From Bacteroidota bacterium (lineage in GTDB: Bacteria; Bacteroidota; Ignavibacteria; Ignavibacteriales; Melioribacteraceae), in contig JAHJUE010000022.1 of NCBI GenBank assembly GCA_018829205.1, positions 434,001 through 498,000 of the forward strand: a stretch of DNA of 64,000 bases, read 5' to 3'. Made by a program: the position numbers and the translations under genes. Shown piece after piece: positions 1 through 53,603 of this stretch (positions are counted from its first letter, which is position 1; the number at the start of each line of letters is the position of its first letter). The notes below the pieces were generated by a model. That model was not told where the DNA came from, did no database searches, and saw only the letters and a program-made list of their open reading frames with translations.

Positions 1-2145
1 TGAAAATGTTTCTTTGGACATCAAAGGTAAATTTCTTTCCTTGGCGATTCCAATAATTCTATTCGTTATTTTTAGTTTTAAGAACAAATTTACTATCGGA
101 GAAAAACCTGAAATAAAAGAATTTATTTTGGGCAGATACGCGATAAGTCTTGTACGCAGCGGGATTCCGTTTGAATCATAGTAATGCTGAAGAAATTCGC
201 TTTTCAGTTTGGCCATATCAAGGCCCGACGGGCATTCGGATTTACATGCTTTGCAGGAAAGGCATAAATCCATAACTTCGTAAATTTCTTTGTTGTCGAA
301 AGGATTTGCCTTTTGCGACTTGGTAAGCATTTCTCTTAATGTATTCGCTCTTGCGCGTGTTGTATTTTTTTCGTCTCTTGTCGCTCTGTAGCTGGGGCAC
401 ATAGTGCCGCCGATAATATCAATTTTCCGGCAGTCGCCCGAACCGTTACATTTTTCCGCCGCTCTTAATATTCCGCGTGTGTTCGAAAAATCATAAACAG
501 TTTCAATATTTTTTACACCTTTATCAACTTCGTATCTTAAACTTGTATTCATTCGCGGAGTATCAACAATTTTTCCAGGATTAAAAATATTTTTCGGGTC
601 CCACGTTTTTTTAATTTCTTTACAAAGTTCATAATTATGCTGACCGATAACAATTGGAATAAATTCGCCGCGCAGACGGCCGTCGCCGTGTTCACCGCTT
701 AACGAACCGTTATATTTTTTAACAAGATGAGCAATTTCTTTTGTTATCGTATAAAATAATTTTACGTCAAATGAATCTTTAAGATTAAGCATGGGCCTAA
801 GGTGAAGTTCGCCCGAACCAATATGAGCGTAATAAACGCAGTCAAGTTTTTTCTCTTTTAATATTTCCTGAAATTCCCTCATATATTCGGGCAGATCGAC
901 CGGGCGCACGCAAGTATCTTCAATAAACGGTTCTGCCCTTTTATCTCCCGGTATATTGGAAAGAAGTCCGAGTCCGGCTTTTCTTAACGACCATACCTTG
1001 TTAACATCTTCATTAAACAGAAGCGGGTAATGGTAGCCGTAACCCTCGGCGCGCATATCGGATTCCATATTTTCAGCAATTAGTTTTATTTCTTCTTCAG
1101 TATCACGGGCAAATTCAACAACAAGCAGAGCGGCCGGGTCTCCTTTTATAAAAAAACGGTTTTTCTTCTGACCAATATTAACCTTTGTACATTGAAGAAT
1201 TTTATCGTCAATTAATTCAACGGCGCCGGGATTATATTTAAGCGCGATTAAATTAGCTTTGAATGTCTCTTCAAGTGAATTCATATGAATAGGAATAACA
1301 CCTACAATTTTAGGAGGAAGCGGAATAAGGTTTAATTTAAGCTCCGTTGTAAATGCAAGCGTACCTTCGGAACCGGCAAGCAACTTACAAATGTTAAAGT
1401 CTTCTTCTCCTAAATCGAATGTATTGCATTTCAGCAGCTGATCAATGGCGTATCCGTTGTTTCGTCTATTAATTTCCTGATGCGGATATTCATTTATAAT
1501 TTCTTTTCTGTTAAAAGGATCGGATAAAATATCGAACAACTTTTTATAAATTTTGCTTTCTAATGAGTTGCCTCTGCATTTTTCCTCTATTTCATTTTTC
1601 TTTAAAGGTTTGAATACAACCTGTGAGCCGTCGCTTAATATTACGTTTGCTTCAATTACATGATCGCGTGTGGAGCCGTATAAAATTGAATGAGAACCGC
1701 ATGAATTATTTCCAAACATTCCGCCTATCATACATCTTGTGCTTGAAGCAGTTTCGGGTCCGAAAAACAATCCGTATTTATGAAGATAAATATTCAATTC
1801 ATCCAAATTTACTCCTGGCTGAATTCTTACCCATCTTTCATCCGGATTTACTTCAATAATCTTATTCATGTATTTCGATATGTCTACGACAATACCCGTA
1901 CCTACGACCTGCCCTGCCAACGAAGTCCCCGCGGCGCGAGGTATTATAGGAATATTATTATCGTCGGCGTATTTGATTATTGTTATAATATCTTCAACTG
2001 ATTTAGGCAGCACTACCGAATATGGTTTTTCCCTATAAGCGGAAGCATCCGTAGCATAAATGATTTTTGATAATTCATCGGTGAGAATATCGCCTTGAAA
2101 ATCTTTTTTTAATTTTTTCAGACTATCGGTATCAAGCGGTTTCAT
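1..2145 (-). CDS. FAD-linked oxidase with C-terminal Fe-S domain (YdiJ/GlcD-like), partial
   Basis: This gene starts at an ATG at 2145 and stays open to base 1, so only its first 715 codons are visible and the 3' end lies outside. The N-terminal 250 residues read as an FAD_binding_4 (PCMH/VAO) domain, with a PRAAGTSLAGQ loop and an FGNNSCGSHS segment. An FAD-oxidase C-terminal domain follows, with SGEHGDGRLRGEF near residue 480. Then come a CNGSGDCRK motif and a 4Fe-4S motif CLSCKACKSECP. This order matches the roughly 1000-residue YdiJ/D-2-hydroxyacid dehydrogenase group, which oxidises D-lactate or D-2-hydroxyglutarate at the membrane. The substrate here is unknown. It is the last visible gene of the 4608-to-1 operon, 11 bases after the DUF4922 gene. 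Confidence 0.85.
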   Translation of the reverse strand, partial: MKPLDTDSLKKLKKDFQGDILTDELSKIIYATDASAYREKPYSVVLPKSVEDIITIIKYADDNNIPIIPRAAGTSLAGQVVGTGIVVDISKYMNKIIEVNPDERWVRIQPGVNLDELNIYLHKYGLFFGPETASSTRCMIGGMFGNNSCGSHSILYGSTRDHVIEANVILSDGSQVVFKPLKKNEIEEKCRGNSLESKIYKKLFDILSDPFNRKEIINEYPHQEINRRNNGYAIDQLLKCNTFDLGEEDFNICKLLAGSEGTLAFTTELKLNLIPLPPKIVGVIPIHMNSLEETFKANLIALKYNPGAVELIDDKILQCTKVNIGQKKNRFFIKGDPAALLVVEFARDTEEEIKLIAENMESDMRAEGYGYHYPLLFNEDVNKVWSLRKAGLGLLSNIPGDKRAEPFIEDTCVRPVDLPEYMREFQEILKEKKLDCVYYAHIGSGELHLRPMLNLKDSFDVKLFYTITKEIAHLVKKYNGSLSGEHGDGRLRGEFIPIVIGQHNYELCKEIKKTWDPKNIFNPGKIVDTPRMNTSLRYEVDKGVKNIETVYDFSNTRGILRAAEKCNGSGDCRKIDIIGGTMCPSYRATRDEKNTTRARANTLREMLTKSQKANPFDNKEIYEVMDLCLSCKACKSECPSGLDMAKLKSEFLQHYYDSNGIPLRTRLIAYLPKINSFISGFSPIVNLFLKLKITNRIIGIAKERNLPLMSKETFS

Positions 2146-2156
2146 AAGTGAAGTTT

Positions 2157-3164
2157 TTAACTCCCAATAATATCTTTAAATTCGTTTGCAATATATCTTA
2201 TTTTTTCATCATTTATAGTTACTTGTTTATAAATATCAACAATCAAATCTTTGTTTACTCTTTCGAAATCTTCTTCGCGGGGGAAAATACAAACTCCTCC
2301 AAGATCAACAGCGGCGGGGCTAATAAGAATTTTATCTTTCCCTTCTTCAAAAAAGTATGAAGGTCTGTGTTTGATTCTAGGAAAAATAATTACTCTCCAA
2401 TTATTTTCATAACCGCAAATAATATTCATCATCGGTTCATCAACTTCCCCGTTTTTAGAAAGAAGTTTATAAATAATTTTAAAACTACTAACGAGGGATT
2501 TCAGGTTATTCGATTCCATTGAAATAAAGTTTCTTAAATATCCAGTAACAGAAAATATTCTTAAGTCATTTTTTTCATAAACAATTTTCCCATAAACTTC
2601 TACAATTTTATCGTACTCATCATCAATTTTCATAAAGCCTTGGTTCCCGGCTTGGAAATGCATATGATCAGGAGCGGAGGCGCCGCATTTTGGACCGTTA
2701 TAAAAAAGTGTAAATTCATTACCCATGTTTTTTGAAAGCAGAAGCATGTTTTCAAATTCATCATAAATTAATTGCGGCACATGATTAATAGAAGGAATTG
2801 TAAAATGTTTCGGGAAAATAGGAAAAGGATTTACAAGTATGATATAATTTCCGTTTGCCTTTACCGCTTTCTGCTCAAGCGGAAGATTTTTAACGCATAA
2901 AAAACAAGGTCGTTCTCCTATCGACTTGCTGTCTACCTTTGCAGATGAGGATATTATGCGTCCCGGGTTAAAATGAGCTTCTACCTCAAAGTTATCGAAT
3001 TCAAATTTTTTAATTTGTACGGAACTTAAACTCTTATAGCCTGCGGAAGCTAATTCCCAATTGTTAATCTGACTTTTAAATAATCTATCGGCCTTATCGC
3101 TTAATTTTGTTATGCTAAAATCATCTTCCAATAAAAGATTGTTTTCTTTAAACTCAATTCTCAT
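2157..3164 (-). CDS. DUF4922 HIT-like nucleotidyltransferase/phosphorylase
   Basis: This 335-residue cytoplasmic protein carries the histidine-triad-like motif DHMHFQ (H167, H169, Q171 from the chosen start), with a CxxC (CFLC) near residue 87. That resembles the GalT/ATP-adenylyltransferase/GDP-galactose phosphorylase branch of the HIT superfamily, and I read it as the DUF4922 family. The known family chemistry is nucleotidyl transfer or nucleotide-sugar phosphorolysis; its own substrate is unknown. A longer reading to 3197 exists, but the ATG at 3164 has GGAAAA about 10 bases upstream and overlaps the preceding glycosyltransferase stop by only 11 bases. That overlap suggests translational coupling and a shared sugar-nucleotide pathway. 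Confidence 0.75.
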
Positions 3165-4608
3165 TTTTGTTTTTCCATTGTCGTGCAAGCACCTCAATAG
3201 TTCTTATTCTGTCTTTATAAAGGTTGTATGTATTCTGTTTATCTATTTCAAGCGCGGCATCTGAATTTCCTTCCCATCTTCTGCACATATAAATAGGGTT
3301 ATAAATTCTGCCTATCTGGTAATCTCTTGAAATCATTAATCCTAAAGCATAATCTTCGCCGTAACTAACATTTGGAATTTTATACTCGCGGATTATGGGC
3401 GTGTAAAAAGCGCGAGGAGCGCCTAGGCCGTTTATTCTTAACGCGTTATTGCGGCCGTTATCGGGTGTCCATTCTTTATGATCTATAATTCCCGGGGGAA
3501 TTTCTTCCAGTTTAAAATTTGTCATCCGGTAGGAACCAATAACCATTGCGCATTTTTCTTTTTTGAATGTGTCAACAATTGTCTGGAGAGTATTTTCATC
3601 AGAGTAAATATCATCGCTGTCGAGCTGAGCTGCAAATTTTCCGCACATATCGTTATGCACCGCTTCGTTCCAGCATCCTCCAATTCCCAAATCTTTTCTT
3701 TCGGGAATAACATGAATTATTCTTGGGTCTTTGTCTGCGTAAGATTTAATTTTTTCGGTCGTGCCGTCATTTGAATAATTATCAACAATTATTAGATTAA
3801 ACTTAAAATCCGTTTTCTGCGAAACAACTGATTCTATTGCGTCTCCGATAGTATTGACTCGATTTTTTACAGGTATAACAACGGAGGCCTCATATTCAAA
3901 AGTTTTTTCATTAATATTAATTTCTTTAAAAGAAGGTTTTAGAAACGCATTAATTTTCTTTAAATGTTCGGTAACGGCTTTTTCCATTTCGATTTGCACT
4001 TCCCTGTTTTTAGGATTAACATAATCGAATTGTTTTGTGCCGCTTTTACGTGTATCAGTTTCAATAGTTGTATATAAAAATTCGGGTATCCTTAATATTT
4101 CACCGTTTCTAGACGCGTGCAGTCTTAAATTATAAATACCCGCAAAGGTATATTCATTTTCATTTTTATAAGATTTCAAAATTTTCGAATTAAAGAACAA
4201 AACTGAACCGAAATCAAAATCATCTCTCAGACTTCCGATTTGATAATCAATTACAGGATGAGGGCTTAATGTTCCTTCTTTAATCGCGTTATAATTGCTG
4301 TAAACCAACGCTGCTCCGGTCGAGGCAATCACCTTGTCAAATCGTTCCAAGGCAAATTGGCTGAATTCATATTTATTATCCTTTGTAAATAATAATATGT
4401 TTTCGGAGACCGACTTTTCAATTATTAAATTAATTGTTTTAGTGCTTGTCAGATCTTCAACTTTCAAAAACTCGCATCCGTCAATCTTATCGATATTATC
4501 ATCTGTCACCAACAAATAAGTTTTTGAAACTACATTGCTTTTCTTTAATAAATCAATTGTGTTTTTAGTGTAATCGGAGCCACCATAAGGTAAAAAAGCG
4601 GTAATCAT
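3154..4608 (-). CDS. Two-domain family 2 glycosyltransferase
   Basis: The protein has 484 residues. Residues 240-470 form a GT-A domain of family GT2. It opens with [10 protein letters not shown], continues through a VDNYSNDGT nucleotide-binding loop, and has the metal-binding DSD of QLDSDD at 330-332 plus a GEDYALGL acceptor-site motif. Residues 1-235 also look like a GT-A fold ([10 protein letters not shown] start, SNYN near 105) but lack a clear DxD, so this half is probably a degenerate or regulatory copy. It is cytoplasmic, with no signal peptide or membrane segment. It is first in the operon with the DUF4922 protein and the FAD oxidase. The acceptor and donor sugars cannot be told from sequence. 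Confidence 0.85.
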
Positions 4609-4683
4609 AATTTATTGTTTCCTATATCTGATGTAAAAAATTAGTTAATCATTTTACATAATAAAATATTATCATTATAAAAG

Positions 4684-4715
4684 ATTCCCCTTCCAAAAAT
4701 AATTGAAAGGGGAAT
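4684..4715 (-). terminator. Hairpin terminator after the T9SS propeller gene
   Basis: ATTCCCCTT at 4684 pairs with AAGGGGAAT at 4707 around a short A/T loop. Read on the minus strand the stem is followed by CTTTTATAAT. It lies just past the stop of the 4749-6032 gene and before the glycosyltransferase operon. Confidence 0.6.
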
Positions 4716-4748
4716 TTACATAACCACATAACGAGGAGTTAAGAGGAA

Positions 4749-6032
4749 TTATTTCATTAAAATCATTTTTTTAGAAATATTTACGCTTCCCGAAGTAAGT
4801 GTATAAACATACATTCCGCTTGCTAAATTTGAAGCGTTAAAATCAACCTGGTATGTACCAGAGCTTTTTACTTCGTTGATTAATGTAGCGACTTCCTGAC
4901 CAAGAGTATTAAAAACTTTTAAGCTTACAAATCCGTTTTCAGGAATTGAAAACTTAATGTTTGTAGTCGGGTTAAAAGGATTAGGATAATTTTGAGAAAG
5001 TGAATAACCTGTCGGCAATTCCGCTAATTCTTCAACGCCTACTGAGCCTTTTGTAAATTTATAAAGACGGTTATATTTTGTTCCGAATAATCCAACATAA
5101 GCAGTATTTCCGTCGGCGCTAAATGCTAAACCTCTCGGCAATTCATCCGAAGGAGTAGGATGAGGGCTCGGTAATGTAAAACTATCAACAATAGCTTTTG
5201 TTGTAACGTCAACGCCGTACCATGTTAAATGAGTATATGGTCCGGTACCTCTTGAGTCGTTTGATACCCATAACAAACCAGTTGCTGGATTCCATGCACT
5301 ACTTTCAATTGACATACCTGTAAGCATTGAATCGGTCATAGCAAAATCCGAAAATTCATCAGGTCTTGTATAAATACGAACTGTTTGATCGCCTGTAAAT
5401 GGTGTCCAGTAAATTGCGTTGCCGTCCGGAGCTACTTCCATTGTTCTCGCGATATTAGGAGGCCCGAGAACCGCGTTTCCAAGATAGTTTAATTCAGGAT
5501 CATACATTGTAATAGCAGATGTTCCGCCGCCTACAACTGGACCAAGAAAGATGGTTCCGTCATTTGCAACTGATGGCGCGGTTGGAGAAGAACCTGTTTC
5601 CGTAACAGCATGCATTCCCATACCTTCATATGTCTGATAGTTTATTTTGATCATTTTGCTTGGTCCGCCAGAAGTAAAAAGAATATTCCCGTCGGGGTCT
5701 TTTCCAATACCGCGTGTACCGGAAGTACTTCCGCCTTTACCAAGTGTATCAATAGATGTACCGGAATTAATAATAGCTATTGTGTCAACATGAGAACCGT
5801 CGGCACTAAATATAAGAATTGGAGAAACTGATAATGTATCACCGCTTGGAGATACCCAGTTTTGTTTATAATAACTGGCAGTCCATATCTTTCCGTCAGG
5901 TGTTACTTCAATGCCGTGAGTTCCGCCTTTATAATTTGTATCAGGCCAGGCGCCTTCATATGTCCACTGAGCTTTGCTGGTGCCAGCAAGCAGCAGTAAA
6001 AAAACAAACATTGTAGATATTTTTTTTAACAT
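4749..6032 (-). CDS. Secreted beta-propeller protein with T9SS sorting domain
   Basis: This 427-residue protein opens with a signal peptide (residues 1-21, ending SKA). About 310 residues of NHL/SMP-30-like repeats follow, with recurring phrases such as GIGKDPDGN, EVAPDGNA and AFSADGNTAYVG, consistent with a six- or seven-bladed propeller. Residues 340-427 are a type IX secretion sorting domain beginning QNYPNPFNPT and ending with the KKMILMK tail. It is therefore expected to be exported across the outer membrane and anchored or released at the surface. No catalytic motif is visible. It lies downstream of the IPT-domain propeller lipoprotein, which has a related propeller, and may share its ligand. 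Confidence 0.8.
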   Translation of the reverse strand: MLKKISTMFVFLLLLAGTSKAQWTYEGAWPDTNYKGGTHGIEVTPDGKIWTASYYKQNWVSPSGDTLSVSPILIFSADGSHVDTIAIINSGTSIDTLGKGGSTSGTRGIGKDPDGNILFTSGGPSKMIKINYQTYEGMGMHAVTETGSSPTAPSVANDGTIFLGPVVGGGTSAITMYDPELNYLGNAVLGPPNIARTMEVAPDGNAIYWTPFTGDQTVRIYTRPDEFSDFAMTDSMLTGMSIESSAWNPATGLLWVSNDSRGTGPYTHLTWYGVDVTTKAIVDSFTLPSPHPTPSDELPRGLAFSADGNTAYVGLFGTKYNRLYKFTKGSVGVEELAELPTGYSLSQNYPNPFNPTTNIKFSIPENGFVSLKVFNTLGQEVATLINEVKSSGTYQVDFNASNLASGMYVYTLTSGSVNISKKMILMK

Positions 6033-7414: not shown

Positions 7415-8422
7415 CTAGAACGAAAAATTAAATGAGAATCTATGCACATCATCAAAAATACCGAAAGGCTGATATGCATAATCAATACCTAGATTCATTC
7501 CAACAAAACCTCGTTTAATACCAAACCCGGCTGTAAAATCCTGTTCATCGGACGGAGATACAAATCCAGCTCTTATTGAAAATGTATTTACAAATGTATA
7601 TTCGCCGCCGACAAAAATTTGTTCGCTATAATCGCGCGGGTGTGAAGCGTCGACAGAAACAACCAGCGAATGGGTGTTTTTATCAACATCCAGCAAATCA
7701 AGAGCATTCATTGAAAGCCCGATTCTGAATGTTAATGGAAGCTGAAAACTTTCTTCTTTATATTTCAGTTCAGTTGAAAAATTTCGTACGCTCATTCCAA
7801 AGTTCAAACTTTTAAATCCGGTTCTATAAAAAATACCGAAATCAAAAGCCATGGCTCCAAGTGAATTATCTTCACTTATATAATTTCCATCTTCGGCTTG
7901 ATCAATAACGCTGCTTCCAAGATCCTGTTTTACATATTTAATATTGCCGCCGACCGCGAATTTTTCAGATAATTCTTTCGCGTATCCTAAACCGATTGAA
8001 TAAGCTTTCGGCGAGTAATTCCCGACATCAATAAAGCCTTGATCGTTATTCGCGACAACTGTCCCCTGGAATTCGCCGTAATCAACCGATAGGAAAGATA
8101 ATCCGAATACTCCGTAATCTCCTTCGAACGGCGCGAAAGCTATAGCCCCGTGAATATAATTTATATCGGCTATCCATCCTACATTTCCGACCGTTAAAGA
8201 AGTGAAATTTTCAATGGACGCCATTGTTGAAGGGTTATAAAACATTGCAGAAGCTGTTGAAAGATCAACTGCGGTTACCGCTTCTGAAAATCCGGTTGTT
8301 CTTGCATCAGTTGAAACACTTAGGAATTTCATGCCTGTCTGGGCAAGTTTTTTATCCTGCGCGTTCAGTTTCAAGGATATAAAACTTATAATTAGAACGA
8401 TAATAATTGTATAATTTCTCAT
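7415..8422 (-). CDS. PorV/PorQ-family outer membrane beta-barrel protein
   Basis: From the ATG at 8422 this is a 335-residue protein with a signal peptide ending LKLNA. It then has the family-typical start GMKFLSVSTDARTTGF and AMFYNPSTMA, followed by alternating amphipathic strands and a terminal FSFNFSF strand, an outer-membrane barrel ending. It resembles the PorV/PorQ group: PorV is the T9SS shuttle that carries cargo to the attachment complex, but Ignavibacteria hold many paralogues of unknown job. A longer reading to 8458 would use TTG; the ATG at 8422 has an AGG-type site and the signal peptide directly after it. It follows the PNPF-motif protein by 19 bases. Confidence 0.8.
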   Translation of the reverse strand: MRNYTIIIVLIISFISLKLNAQDKKLAQTGMKFLSVSTDARTTGFSEAVTAVDLSTASAMFYNPSTMASIENFTSLTVGNVGWIADINYIHGAIAFAPFEGDYGVFGLSFLSVDYGEFQGTVVANNDQGFIDVGNYSPKAYSIGLGYAKELSEKFAVGGNIKYVKQDLGSSVIDQAEDGNYISEDNSLGAMAFDFGIFYRTGFKSLNFGMSVRNFSTELKYKEESFQLPLTFRIGLSMNALDLLDVDKNTHSLVVSVDASHPRDYSEQIFVGGEYTFVNTFSIRAGFVSPSDEQDFTAGFGIKRGFVGMNLGIDYAYQPFGIFDDVHRFSFNFSF

Positions 8423-51628: not shown

Positions 51629-51683
51629 CTTGTAGATACCTTGCAGATTCCTTGTAGATACCTTGTTGATTCCTTGTAGTTTA
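51629..51683 (+). repeat. Five tandem 11-bp repeats (CTTGTAGATAC)
   Basis: Units read CTTGTAGATAC, CTTGCAGATTC, CTTGTAGATAC, CTTGTTGATTC and CTTGTAGTTTAC-like, in exact 11-base register. They lie in the 404-base gap between the NYN gene's end and the SulP gene's start, 200-260 bases before the SulP ATG. The period is near one helical turn, so iteron-like protein binding is possible. Confidence 0.8.
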
Positions 51684-51831: not shown

Positions 51832-52290
51832 TTATTTTTTACTGAACATATCTAAAAAAATATTTTTCTCATTTTCGAGTTGTTTTACTTTTTCTGATTC
51901 CTCATTCCCCTTTTCAGAGTTTAGGATTTCTTTGTAGAACTGCTCGGATTTAATTACTGACGCGCTGTTGACGCGCGCGTAATTCATCAGACTTTGATCA
52001 GATGTTATAAGAGTTATAAGTTTAGGATTTTTAGAACGGTCAATCTCATCTCTTATTTTATTATCCGCGCTTTCGTTTTCCGAATAAATTATTCTCCCTT
52101 TTGAAAGATGCAGAACTGAATTTATATGACCGTCGAGATGTAGTGTTAATTTTATTTTTTTACCGGCAAAATAACGGTTGAGAATATTTACAAGTCCCTC
52201 CCTGCTTGCCTGTTTTTCTTTATTCTGCAAGACATGCAGAGATTTTATTTTACCGATTAAATTGTTGCCGTCAATAATGTAATGTATCAT
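51832..52290 (-). CDS. NYN/YacP-like ribonuclease-fold protein
   Basis: The 152-residue protein of the NYN (PIN-like) superfamily starts MIHYIIDGNNLIGK. It has further acidic positions in LHLDGHINSV, NKIRDEIDRSK and LITSDQSLM, the pattern of YacP/Rae1 nucleases. These cut RNA, sometimes on the ribosome. The C-terminus is a charged helical tail. Its first 109 bases and upstream DNA are present a second time at 53132-53315, to the far side of an inserted MNT/HEPN pair. Confidence 0.82.
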   Translation of the reverse strand: MIHYIIDGNNLIGKIKSLHVLQNKEKQASREGLVNILNRYFAGKKIKLTLHLDGHINSVLHLSKGRIIYSENESADNKIRDEIDRSKNPKLITLITSDQSLMNYARVNSASVIKSEQFYKEILNSEKGNEESEKVKQLENEKNIFLDMFSKK

Positions 52291-52369
52291 ACGTGTAAAT
52301 TAGTGAATTATTTGGGAAGATATTACCCGGGGAAATAATGATTGGAGAATTTTTTGTGATAATGCAAGT
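52182..52369 (-). repeat. Direct repeat, left copy (NYN 5' end and promoter)
   Basis: The sequence from GAATATTTACAAGTCCC to GATAATGCAAGT contains the first 36 codons of the intact NYN gene and about 80 upstream bases. It matches 53132-53315 almost base for base, apart from a few substitutions and a four-base indel. Confidence 0.93.
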
Positions 52370-52408
52370 GTGCTGTAAAGGAGTGGTTTGTGACAGCGGG
52401 GCTAATAG

Positions 52409-52825
52409 TTATAAGAATTTATTTATATCTTTTTTAAAATGCGTATAGAGTATTTGAGAGTTCTCAACCAACGGTTCCATTTTGTGAGGATATAAATCAA
52501 GTGCATACGCATGACTAAAGAAATGTCTGAACGCCAAATATTGACCTAAATTATTTTTACATTCTTCCGATATTATTTTCTTTTCAGTCGAAATTTCAAT
52601 TAAATCTTTATGCCATGACTGTCCGCCCGGCAATTCTATATTCTGTGAAATTAATATTTGCTTTAATATATTTTCTATTCCGTTGTATAAATTATGCAAC
52701 AACGCCGCAACTCCGGCTAATTCTAAAGTTGACAGTTTTGAAAGCTCCGAATGCAATGGCAGAATATTAAATACTTCTTCAATATTTTCCAATTCTGCGC
52801 GAATTTTCTGAGACAGGTCAGCCAT
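52409..52825 (-). CDS. hepT: HEPN-domain toxin (HepT-like)
   Basis: The 138-residue helical protein carries the HepT signature RX4HXY exactly: R100-HFFS-H105-A-Y107. It is encoded directly after, and overlapping by 8 bases, an MNT nucleotidyltransferase. In known MntA/HepT modules HepT is an RNase toxin and MntA silences it by attaching AMP to the tyrosine of this motif. The order here, antitoxin first, fits. The pair lies between two copies of the NYN 5' repeat, so it appears to be an insertion. Confidence 0.9.
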   Translation of the reverse strand: MADLSQKIRAELENIEEVFNILPLHSELSKLSTLELAGVAALLHNLYNGIENILKQILISQNIELPGGQSWHKDLIEISTEKKIISEECKNNLGQYLAFRHFFSHAYALDLYPHKMEPLVENSQILYTHFKKDINKFL

Positions 52826-53087
52826 AAAGAAGAATACCTTCAGACTTAACTATTTCGCTCAACAAGTTTTGTTTCTTGAGATCAATTAAATCAACAGGTT
52901 TGGAAAGGGAAAATATCAATTCGCCGTAAAATTTAAAAAACTGTGAATCAGGAATTCCTTCAACTGCTAAATCAATATCATTTGACTCGTTATCCTGGTC
53001 AAGGTTGGAACCAAAAAGATATATTCGTGATACGTCATATTTTTTGGCAATTTCAACTAAACGATATTTATCTTCGTATGAGATCAT
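52818..53087 (-). CDS. mntA: MNT-domain nucleotidyltransferase antitoxin (MntA-like)
   Basis: The 89-residue minimal nucleotidyltransferase has G26-S27 (YLFGSNL), then D37-x-D39 (NDIDLAVEG) after nine residues, and a third acidic position near D66/D69 (PVDLIDL). These are the metal- and ATP-binding residues of MntA antitoxins that AMPylate HepT. A plausible -7 box (TATGTTTG on the minus strand, 53119-53126) and the palindrome ATATTC-TT-GAATAT (53124-53137) sit about 35 bases upstream, at the edge of the right-hand repeat. They could give the module its own, self-controlled promoter. Confidence 0.9.
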   Translation of the reverse strand: MISYEDKYRLVEIAKKYDVSRIYLFGSNLDQDNESNDIDLAVEGIPDSQFFKFYGELIFSLSKPVDLIDLKKQNLLSEIVKSEGILLYG

Positions 53088-53131
53088 ATGTAAATTTAAT
53101 TTTTAGATACTCTTATTGCAAACATATTCTT

Positions 53132-53236
53132 GAATATTTACAAGTCCCTCCCTGCCTGCTTTTCTTTATTCTGCAAAGTATGCAGAGATTTTATTTTACC
53201 GATTAAATTGTTGCCGTCAATAATGTAATGTATCAT
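53132..53236 (-). pseudogene. Truncated NYN gene 5' fragment
   Basis: Starting at the ATG at 53236 it reads MIHYIIDGNNLIGKIKSLHT and continues LQNKEKQAGRDL before a stop. A four-base deletion relative to the intact gene breaks the frame, and the rest of the gene is missing. It is a by-product of the duplication that placed the MNT/HEPN pair here. Confidence 0.88.
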
Positions 53237-53315
53237 ACGTGTAAATTAGTGAATTATTTGGGAAGATATTACACGGGGAAATAATGATTGGAGATTTTTT
53301 TGTGATAATGCAAGT
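53132..53315 (-). repeat. Direct repeat, right copy
   Basis: The second copy of 52182-52369, offset by 946 bases at its upstream end. It retains the upstream DNA and start region of the NYN gene. Differences include CATACTTTGC for CATGTCTTGC and loss of four bases in the coding part. The two copies bracket the MNT/HEPN pair. Confidence 0.93.
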
Positions 53316-53415
53316 TTGATTTTACGCTGTAGTTGTGTTTACATGAAAATATTGAATTGTTTTGTAATTGACTTGCGAGTTCTTTTGGGACGCTTCTCTT
53401 TTTCATGGAGACAAT

Positions 53416-53559
53416 GCTGTCAATTTAACTTTGTTAATGGAACGCAGATTTTTATGATTTATTAAGATCGATTAAGATTATCATAAAAAATCATAAGCAA
53501 TCATAACGATCTGCGTTCTATTCTTTTAATGTCCTTTCCTAATCAACTAAGTTGACAGC
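53416..53559. repeat. 144-bp nested palindromic repeat
   Basis: The outer ends GCTGTCAA (53416) and TTGACAGC (53552) are exact inverses. Inside, GAACGCAGAT (53440) pairs with ATCTGCGTTC (53509), and ATGATTT/AATCAT-type A/T-rich arms fill the centre. It has no coding capacity. The layout resembles a small non-autonomous palindromic element or intergenic repeat unit. Together with the repeat at 53132-53315 it fills the gap of about 515 bases (53088-53603), where no gene is seen. Confidence 0.7.
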
Positions 53560-53603
53560 GGGAAATGCCCTGCGTGACGGGGGTTTGGGAGGGATTCGCA
53601 ACT

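Follow-up and report, generated by a model that had tools for sequence, protein, structure and literature searches.

Little is understood of how small toxin–antitoxin pairs move when no phage, plasmid or transposase carries them, and the locus described here raises the question of how such a pair came to stand between two copies of the start of a neighbouring gene. The locus lies in a stretch of 64,000 nucleotides, referred to here as the window, on a 520-kb contig. The genome comprises 4.59 Mb in 39 contigs and is rated 99.95% complete.

Organization of the locus

The features of the locus are listed in Table 1. On the minus strand, they follow in the order of transcription as an NYN-start remnant, mntA, hepT, a 36-nt spacer, and the NYN segment (52372–51832). 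The left and right copies of the direct repeat, 191 and 187 nt in length, were 94.2% identical in a local alignment with one 4-nt gap. The alignment score was 328, compared with a maximum of 31 from 200 shuffles of the right-hand sequence. A preliminary description of this DNA had placed a direct repeat on both sides of the MntA and HepT genes, and the repeat was recovered there, with the earlier ends (52369 and 53315) lying 3 nt short. The divergence of the copies reported at that time was also found and amounted to seven substitutions besides the gap. The initial 21 aligned positions were free of them, the next 84 had four, and the 82 upstream had three. The four substitutions in the 84-position part were coding, and three were adjacent (52231–52233).

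Table 1. Features of the MNT/HEPN locus, with positions in the window.
Feature	Position	Strand	Description
YacP-like NYN-domain gene, intact, 152 aa	51832..52290	-	PF05991, 64.5 bits (cut-off 24.6), E 1.5e-17
Left repeat copy	52182..52372	-	First 109 nt of the NYN gene and 82 nt upstream
Spacer between hepT and left repeat copy, 36 nt	52373..52408		Sequence to the right of the right copy does not align with it
hepT-like toxin gene, 138 aa	52409..52825	-	HepT-like_2 PF20797, 79.1 bits (cut-off 27)
mntA-like antitoxin gene, 89 aa	52818..53087	-	Polbeta/MNT PF18765, 41.8 bits (cut-off 26.9)
mntA leader, 44 nt	53088..53131	-	TTTGCAA box and AT-rich stretch; candidate module promoter
Right repeat copy	53132..53318	-	Truncated NYN-start remnant with its upstream DNA
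Dispersed hairpin element	53417..53559		Related copies in the genome; adjoins the remnant, outside the repeat and the insertion

The left copy was part of an intact NYN gene, as originally proposed, with both the Pfam match and the open frame of 152 residues in agreement, and the gene was thus left whole. The right copy began with the same start codon as the left copy and then ran into a frameshift and stop codons, which bears out its description as a frame-shifted leftover of the NYN start. No sizeable frame besides mntA and hepT was present between the copies, in accordance with the reported lack of a recombinase.

In a whole-genome search with a 301-base query that included the right copy, the window repeat was found in two places, and no third copy was detected by this query. 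Since the repeat was found at one locus, no known dispersed element accounts for it, and a dispersed repeat or insertion sequence was rejected as its origin. The hairpin element next to the remnant had a predicted fold of −43.6 kcal/mol (53405–53565), and its other copies, whole or partial, were 76–94% identical. An 11-nt unit, CTTGTAGATAC, was repeated in tandem in 4.6 copies (51629–51679) upstream of a sulfate permease family gene.

The distance from the repeat to the last aligned hepT codon was about 40 nt, and that from the repeat to the mntA start was about 45 nt. When the upstream regions of five orthologues were compared by eye, the likeness of the leader to that of one orthologue (G022) stopped about where the repeat starts, and a TTTG box with an AT-rich leader stood directly upstream of mntA in four of the five. 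On the basis of this shared leader, the module is likely to have a promoter of its own. An integron cassette was considered for the window and was unsupported, with no integrase among the six locus genes scanned and a gap of 36 nt between hepT and the repeat.

The toxin–antitoxin pair

The mntA and hepT frames were open throughout and overlapped by 8 nt. The toxin contained the motif RHFFSHAY, corresponding to RX4HXY, at residue 100, and residues Arg100, His105, and Tyr107 were invariant in all five aligned orthologues. The antitoxin contained the motif GSX9DXD at residue 26, and residues Gly26, Ser27, Asp37, and Asp39 were likewise invariant in the five orthologues. The antitoxin also matched the PADLOC candidate families PDC-S09, with a best score of 33 bits, and its profile matched a solved Mnt-family antitoxin (PDB code 5yep) with an E value of 0.00015. 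The structure search with the toxin profile gave no match to a HepT structure.

The type VII system HepT/MntA of Shewanella oneidensis, as presented in PMC7641770, shares the gene pair and the toxin motif RX4HXY with the window. The antitoxin motif reported there is GSX10DXD, whereas that of the window is one residue shorter, and the Class I HepT toxins described there belong to PF01934 or PF08780, whereas the window toxin belongs to PF20797. Both proteins missed the NCBIfam equivalog cut-off of 60 bits, with 18 bits for HepT and 36.8 bits for MntA. On these scores, the pair was classed as MNT/HEPN-type (PF18765/PF20797) rather than as canonical type VII, a type in which the toxin is an RNase that adenylylation inactivates.

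Distribution of the NYN gene and the pair

In a protein search of 58 genomes, with the genome of the window counted, NYN matches were present in 49 and HepT matches in 8. Seven genomes besides that of the window had a HepT match, and in each of them it was located on another contig than the NYN match. Because NYN is common, the toxin is patchy, and the toxin is not on the NYN contig in those seven genomes, the pair was probably a late arrival.

The NYN gene without the pair occurs in relatives, with a protein identity of at most 64% among those found. Three named relatives from this search were metagenome bins of Ignavibacteria, Ignavibacteriales, and Melioribacteraceae, and the NYN gene contexts differed from that of the window in the three relatives viewed. 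The protein search of the 58 genomes showed no second NYN start in relatives, and the sole other second NYN match, in G024, was weak and lay inside a 403-residue frame. An empty NYN site of near sequence was not found among the relatives or in the genus, of which the genomes searched included this one only, and no genome with the module joined to NYN without the remnant was found among the relatives searched. The preliminary description had named two arrangements as counterevidence to insertion, the repeat without the pair in relatives and the pair in place without the repeat. Neither was encountered: the protein search revealed no relative in which the NYN start was doubled, and elsewhere the pair was never found beside NYN.

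Direct repeats around orthologous pairs

The 700 nt to either side of each orthologous pair were compared for a direct repeat shared by the two flanks, with a minimum length of 50 nt and a minimum identity of 75%. The first set contained the window and nine close orthologous pairs (59–79% identity per protein), and the second set contained five further orthologues found afterwards. With this criterion, which was set after the first repeats had been seen, 8 of 15 pairs were bracketed (7 of 10 in the first set and 1 of 5 in the second), or 7 of 14 when the window was not counted. Locus L084 of the first set ended about 250 nt away from its pair and locus L136 of the second about 330 nt away, and both were scored as misses. 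A genome with a HepT fragment only (G015, locus L052) was excluded from the bracket counts. The fragment, at 5021–5113 of that locus, stood alone with 31 codons and was apparently a decayed pair.

Bracketing was rare in the controls. Eight of 1069 sliding 680-nt windows were bracketed in 20 stretches from the ten genomes of the first set; these windows overlap, which makes p-values computed from them too small, and the stretches were picked by the author, one being too short to give any window at the 700-nt distance. None of 240 windows elsewhere in the 64-kb window was bracketed, and 2 of 100 gene-anchored stretches were. One of the gene-anchored hits (L107 of G007, 229–1814) was a gene without a Pfam match, bracketed by a 72-nt repeat of 89% identity. 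This gene is taken to be a nucleotidyltransferase-like sequence, and its neighbour presumably represents a VapBC pair. Among distant HepT homologues, 1 of 11 was bracketed within 700 nt and 2 of 11 within 1200 nt, so that the claim of bracketing is limited to the close orthologues. In these, the bracketing of half of the pairs suggests that such pairs settle by imprecise recombination, without an enzyme of their own.

The repeats that were tested for copy number are local. The copy search scored at most 40 candidates per genome with E values up to 1e-5 (0.001 for G732), so that copies could be missed. It gave at least two matches in G027, G562, G040, G732, and the distant G598, at least three in G022, and at least five in G007, four of which were inside the locus.

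Identity of the repeats

In three of the eight bracketed loci, those of the window, G562, and G732, the repeat corresponded to the end of a gene, one of the copies being truncated. In G562, 58 of 60 repeat nucleotides belonged to the mutL 3′ end. The repeat of G732 contained the 3′ end of a Big_5-domain gene that extends to the contig start. In both genomes, the pair separated the gene end from a truncated in-frame tail. The order in G562 was mutL, the pair, a segment A, the mutL tail, a SacI-like restriction enzyme with a D12 methyltransferase, and the repeated segment A′. Judged by this order, the locus looks like two versions with different inserts joined end to end. The hepT gene of this locus (L086, 2482–7907) has an in-frame TAG, and a second repeat pair is present at 5300–5515 and 7722–7907. 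For G562, no mutL site without the insert was found across 20 genomes, G562 included; at the mutL loci of 11 relatives, the DNA right of the mutL tail was unmatched beyond about the tail itself.

In G007 and G022, the pair was located within arrays of toxin–antitoxin-like genes spaced by related repeats. Locus L049 of G007 (1–4800) contained four toxin–antitoxin-like units in both orientations with related repeats between them, and these repeats are presumed to be REP-like. The pair of G455 (L085, 1021–7700) was located near a tyrosine integrase gene and several related repeats. The integrase is assumed to be of the integron type and the repeats attC-like, and an integron cassette is a possible reading of the pair in this genome. 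The repeat of G040 was weak (62 nt, 79%), and that of G027 was left unclassified. In the distant G598, the repeat was a stretch near the end of a gene, and this gene adjoined a ParA-type ATPase gene.

Possible routes of entry of the pair

Entry of the module by one-sided recombination, homologous at one end and illegitimate at the other, is the preferred reading and is given about an even chance of being correct. A self-contained module, extending from 52409 to about 53131 and consisting of a probable short promoter of its own, mntA, and hepT, would have arrived upstream of NYN in DNA of the form module, NYN upstream region, and NYN. One end of the incoming DNA would have recombined by homology within the NYN gene, and the other end would have joined illegitimately in the first third of the resident NYN gene, just upstream of mntA. 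The product would be a truncated resident NYN start as the right copy, the module, and a complete NYN gene as the left copy. Such a route would be homology-facilitated illegitimate recombination, and the arrangement that it yields is the one known as insertion with long target duplication. Addiction to the toxin could then shield the unstable duplication from deletion by recombination between the copies.

The nature of the codon changes bears on this reading. Among the codons changed between copies, 8 of 18 were synonymous over three loci, compared with about 19% expected at random (binomial p 0.012); the distant G598, which was aligned with its copies out of frame, was left out of this count, and the window contributed one synonymous and one non-synonymous change. 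This excess suggests that the divergence of the copies was in part that of genes, as between two alleles, and one-sided recombination is preferred on that account. The gene order of G562, resembling two joined versions of a locus, is counted in its favour as well. The earlier suggestion that the incoming piece had brought its own version fits the data best, and the codon counts argue for it weakly, 8 of 18 being a pooled figure and the window giving one of two. Counting against one-sided recombination, neither its donor form nor a near empty site was found among the genomes searched, only three of the eight bracketed loci were clear gene-end duplications, and the second set gave a single bracketed pair in five.

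The structure is suited equally well by an insertion with a long target duplication, in which a replicative step perhaps copied about 60–190 bp of target and the right copy later decayed. Direct repeats of local target DNA around the module, as such an insertion would leave them, were present in the window. Restriction–modification systems inserted with long, variable target duplications of about 100 bp have the same structure; they are described in PMC3874152, PMC3031569, and PMC1643837, which cite the original reports of Nobusato et al. 2000 and Furuta et al. 2010. A restriction–modification system also adjoins the pair of G562. The partly coding-like differences between the copies speak weakly against a duplication of this kind, and the A/A′ repeat of G562 would require a second event. 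A long target duplication is regarded as unlikely, though as a serious candidate.

A Campbell-type single crossover of a circle containing the module and an NYN start would yield exactly the order repeat, module, and repeat, with differing copies if the circle came from a foreign strain. Reasoning from the structure, recombination between the copies would free the circle again. However, such a circle must already carry the gene end, and only the pair sits between the copies. Moreover, 72,556 plasmid records gave a single match to the toxin, with 27.8% identity, and no viral contig with HepT was detected in a pattern scan that reaches close relatives only. This makes the circle decidedly improbable.

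The chance is also slim that the NYN start was first duplicated in tandem and that the module was inserted between the copies or brought there by a later deletion. This order of events is simple, fits the structure, and needs no foreign NYN allele, but it leaves unexplained why the pair is frequently bracketed while other DNA rarely is, and the NYN search gave no relative with the duplication but without the pair.

The preliminary description had likened the insertion to integrating elements that rebuild their target, and this likeness was not upheld. The whole target gene would be expected of a site-specific element that uses gene ends and has lost its recombinase. However, orthologous modules stood in unrelated places, beside unrelated sequences and different genes, with unrelated repeats, and opposite gene ends were used, the 5′ end in the window and 3′ ends in two genomes. 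The loci differ in target, repeat length, and gene end, which makes a single recombinase with one attachment site unlikely, and with no recombinase-sized frame besides the pair between the copies, such an element is given very little credence. An assembly artefact merging strain variants, which a genome in 39 contigs might invite, is just as hard to credit given copies that differ by seven substitutions and a 4-nt gap, the length of the contig, the completeness of the genome, and the similar structures in other genomes.

The observation of the preliminary description is right, its insertion reading is right in outline, and the recurrence of bracketing merits a properly controlled survey. A broader proposal, held tentatively and with more doubt than confidence, is that the MNT/HEPN modules of this lineage are recombinase-free mobile units whose entry duplicates a gene end and whose toxin punishes deletants, so that an unstable duplication is kept. 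If this were true, bracketing gene-end duplications would be a lasting footprint of addiction-module mobility, common to restriction–modification systems, and would link toxin–antitoxin pairs to the route described for restriction–modification genes. A recurring footprint would let moves be counted and donors and recipients be found, and would allow a test of whether addiction preserves duplications that are otherwise prone to collapse.

Comparison with known systems

Compared with the restriction–modification systems inserted with long target duplications, the window shares a small addictive module, the lack of a transposase of its own, and direct repeats of target DNA of about 100 bp. The window differs in containing an MNT/HEPN pair and in the divergence of its copies. 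The open-access literature gave no report of long target duplications of MNT/HEPN modules and none of homology-facilitated illegitimate recombination tied to toxin–antitoxin pairs; as the search covered open-access texts only, this is weak evidence of absence.

Homology-facilitated illegitimate recombination, a one-ended capture of DNA, was demonstrated experimentally in bacteria according to PMC3240628. One homologous and one illegitimate end leave a truncated resident and a complete copy, which is the arrangement found here. The recombination in that study was seen in experiments, whereas that of the window is read from one assembled genome and its analogues.

The displacement arrays of effector–immunity modules of the type VI secretion system (T6SS) in Vibrio cholerae provide another parallel. 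The proposal in PMC5361080 is that incoming toxin–immunity modules use homology at one end as their anchor and leave pieces of older genes behind, as is suggested for the window. The displaced pieces described there are effector ends and immunity genes, whereas the piece in the window is the start of an unrelated gene.
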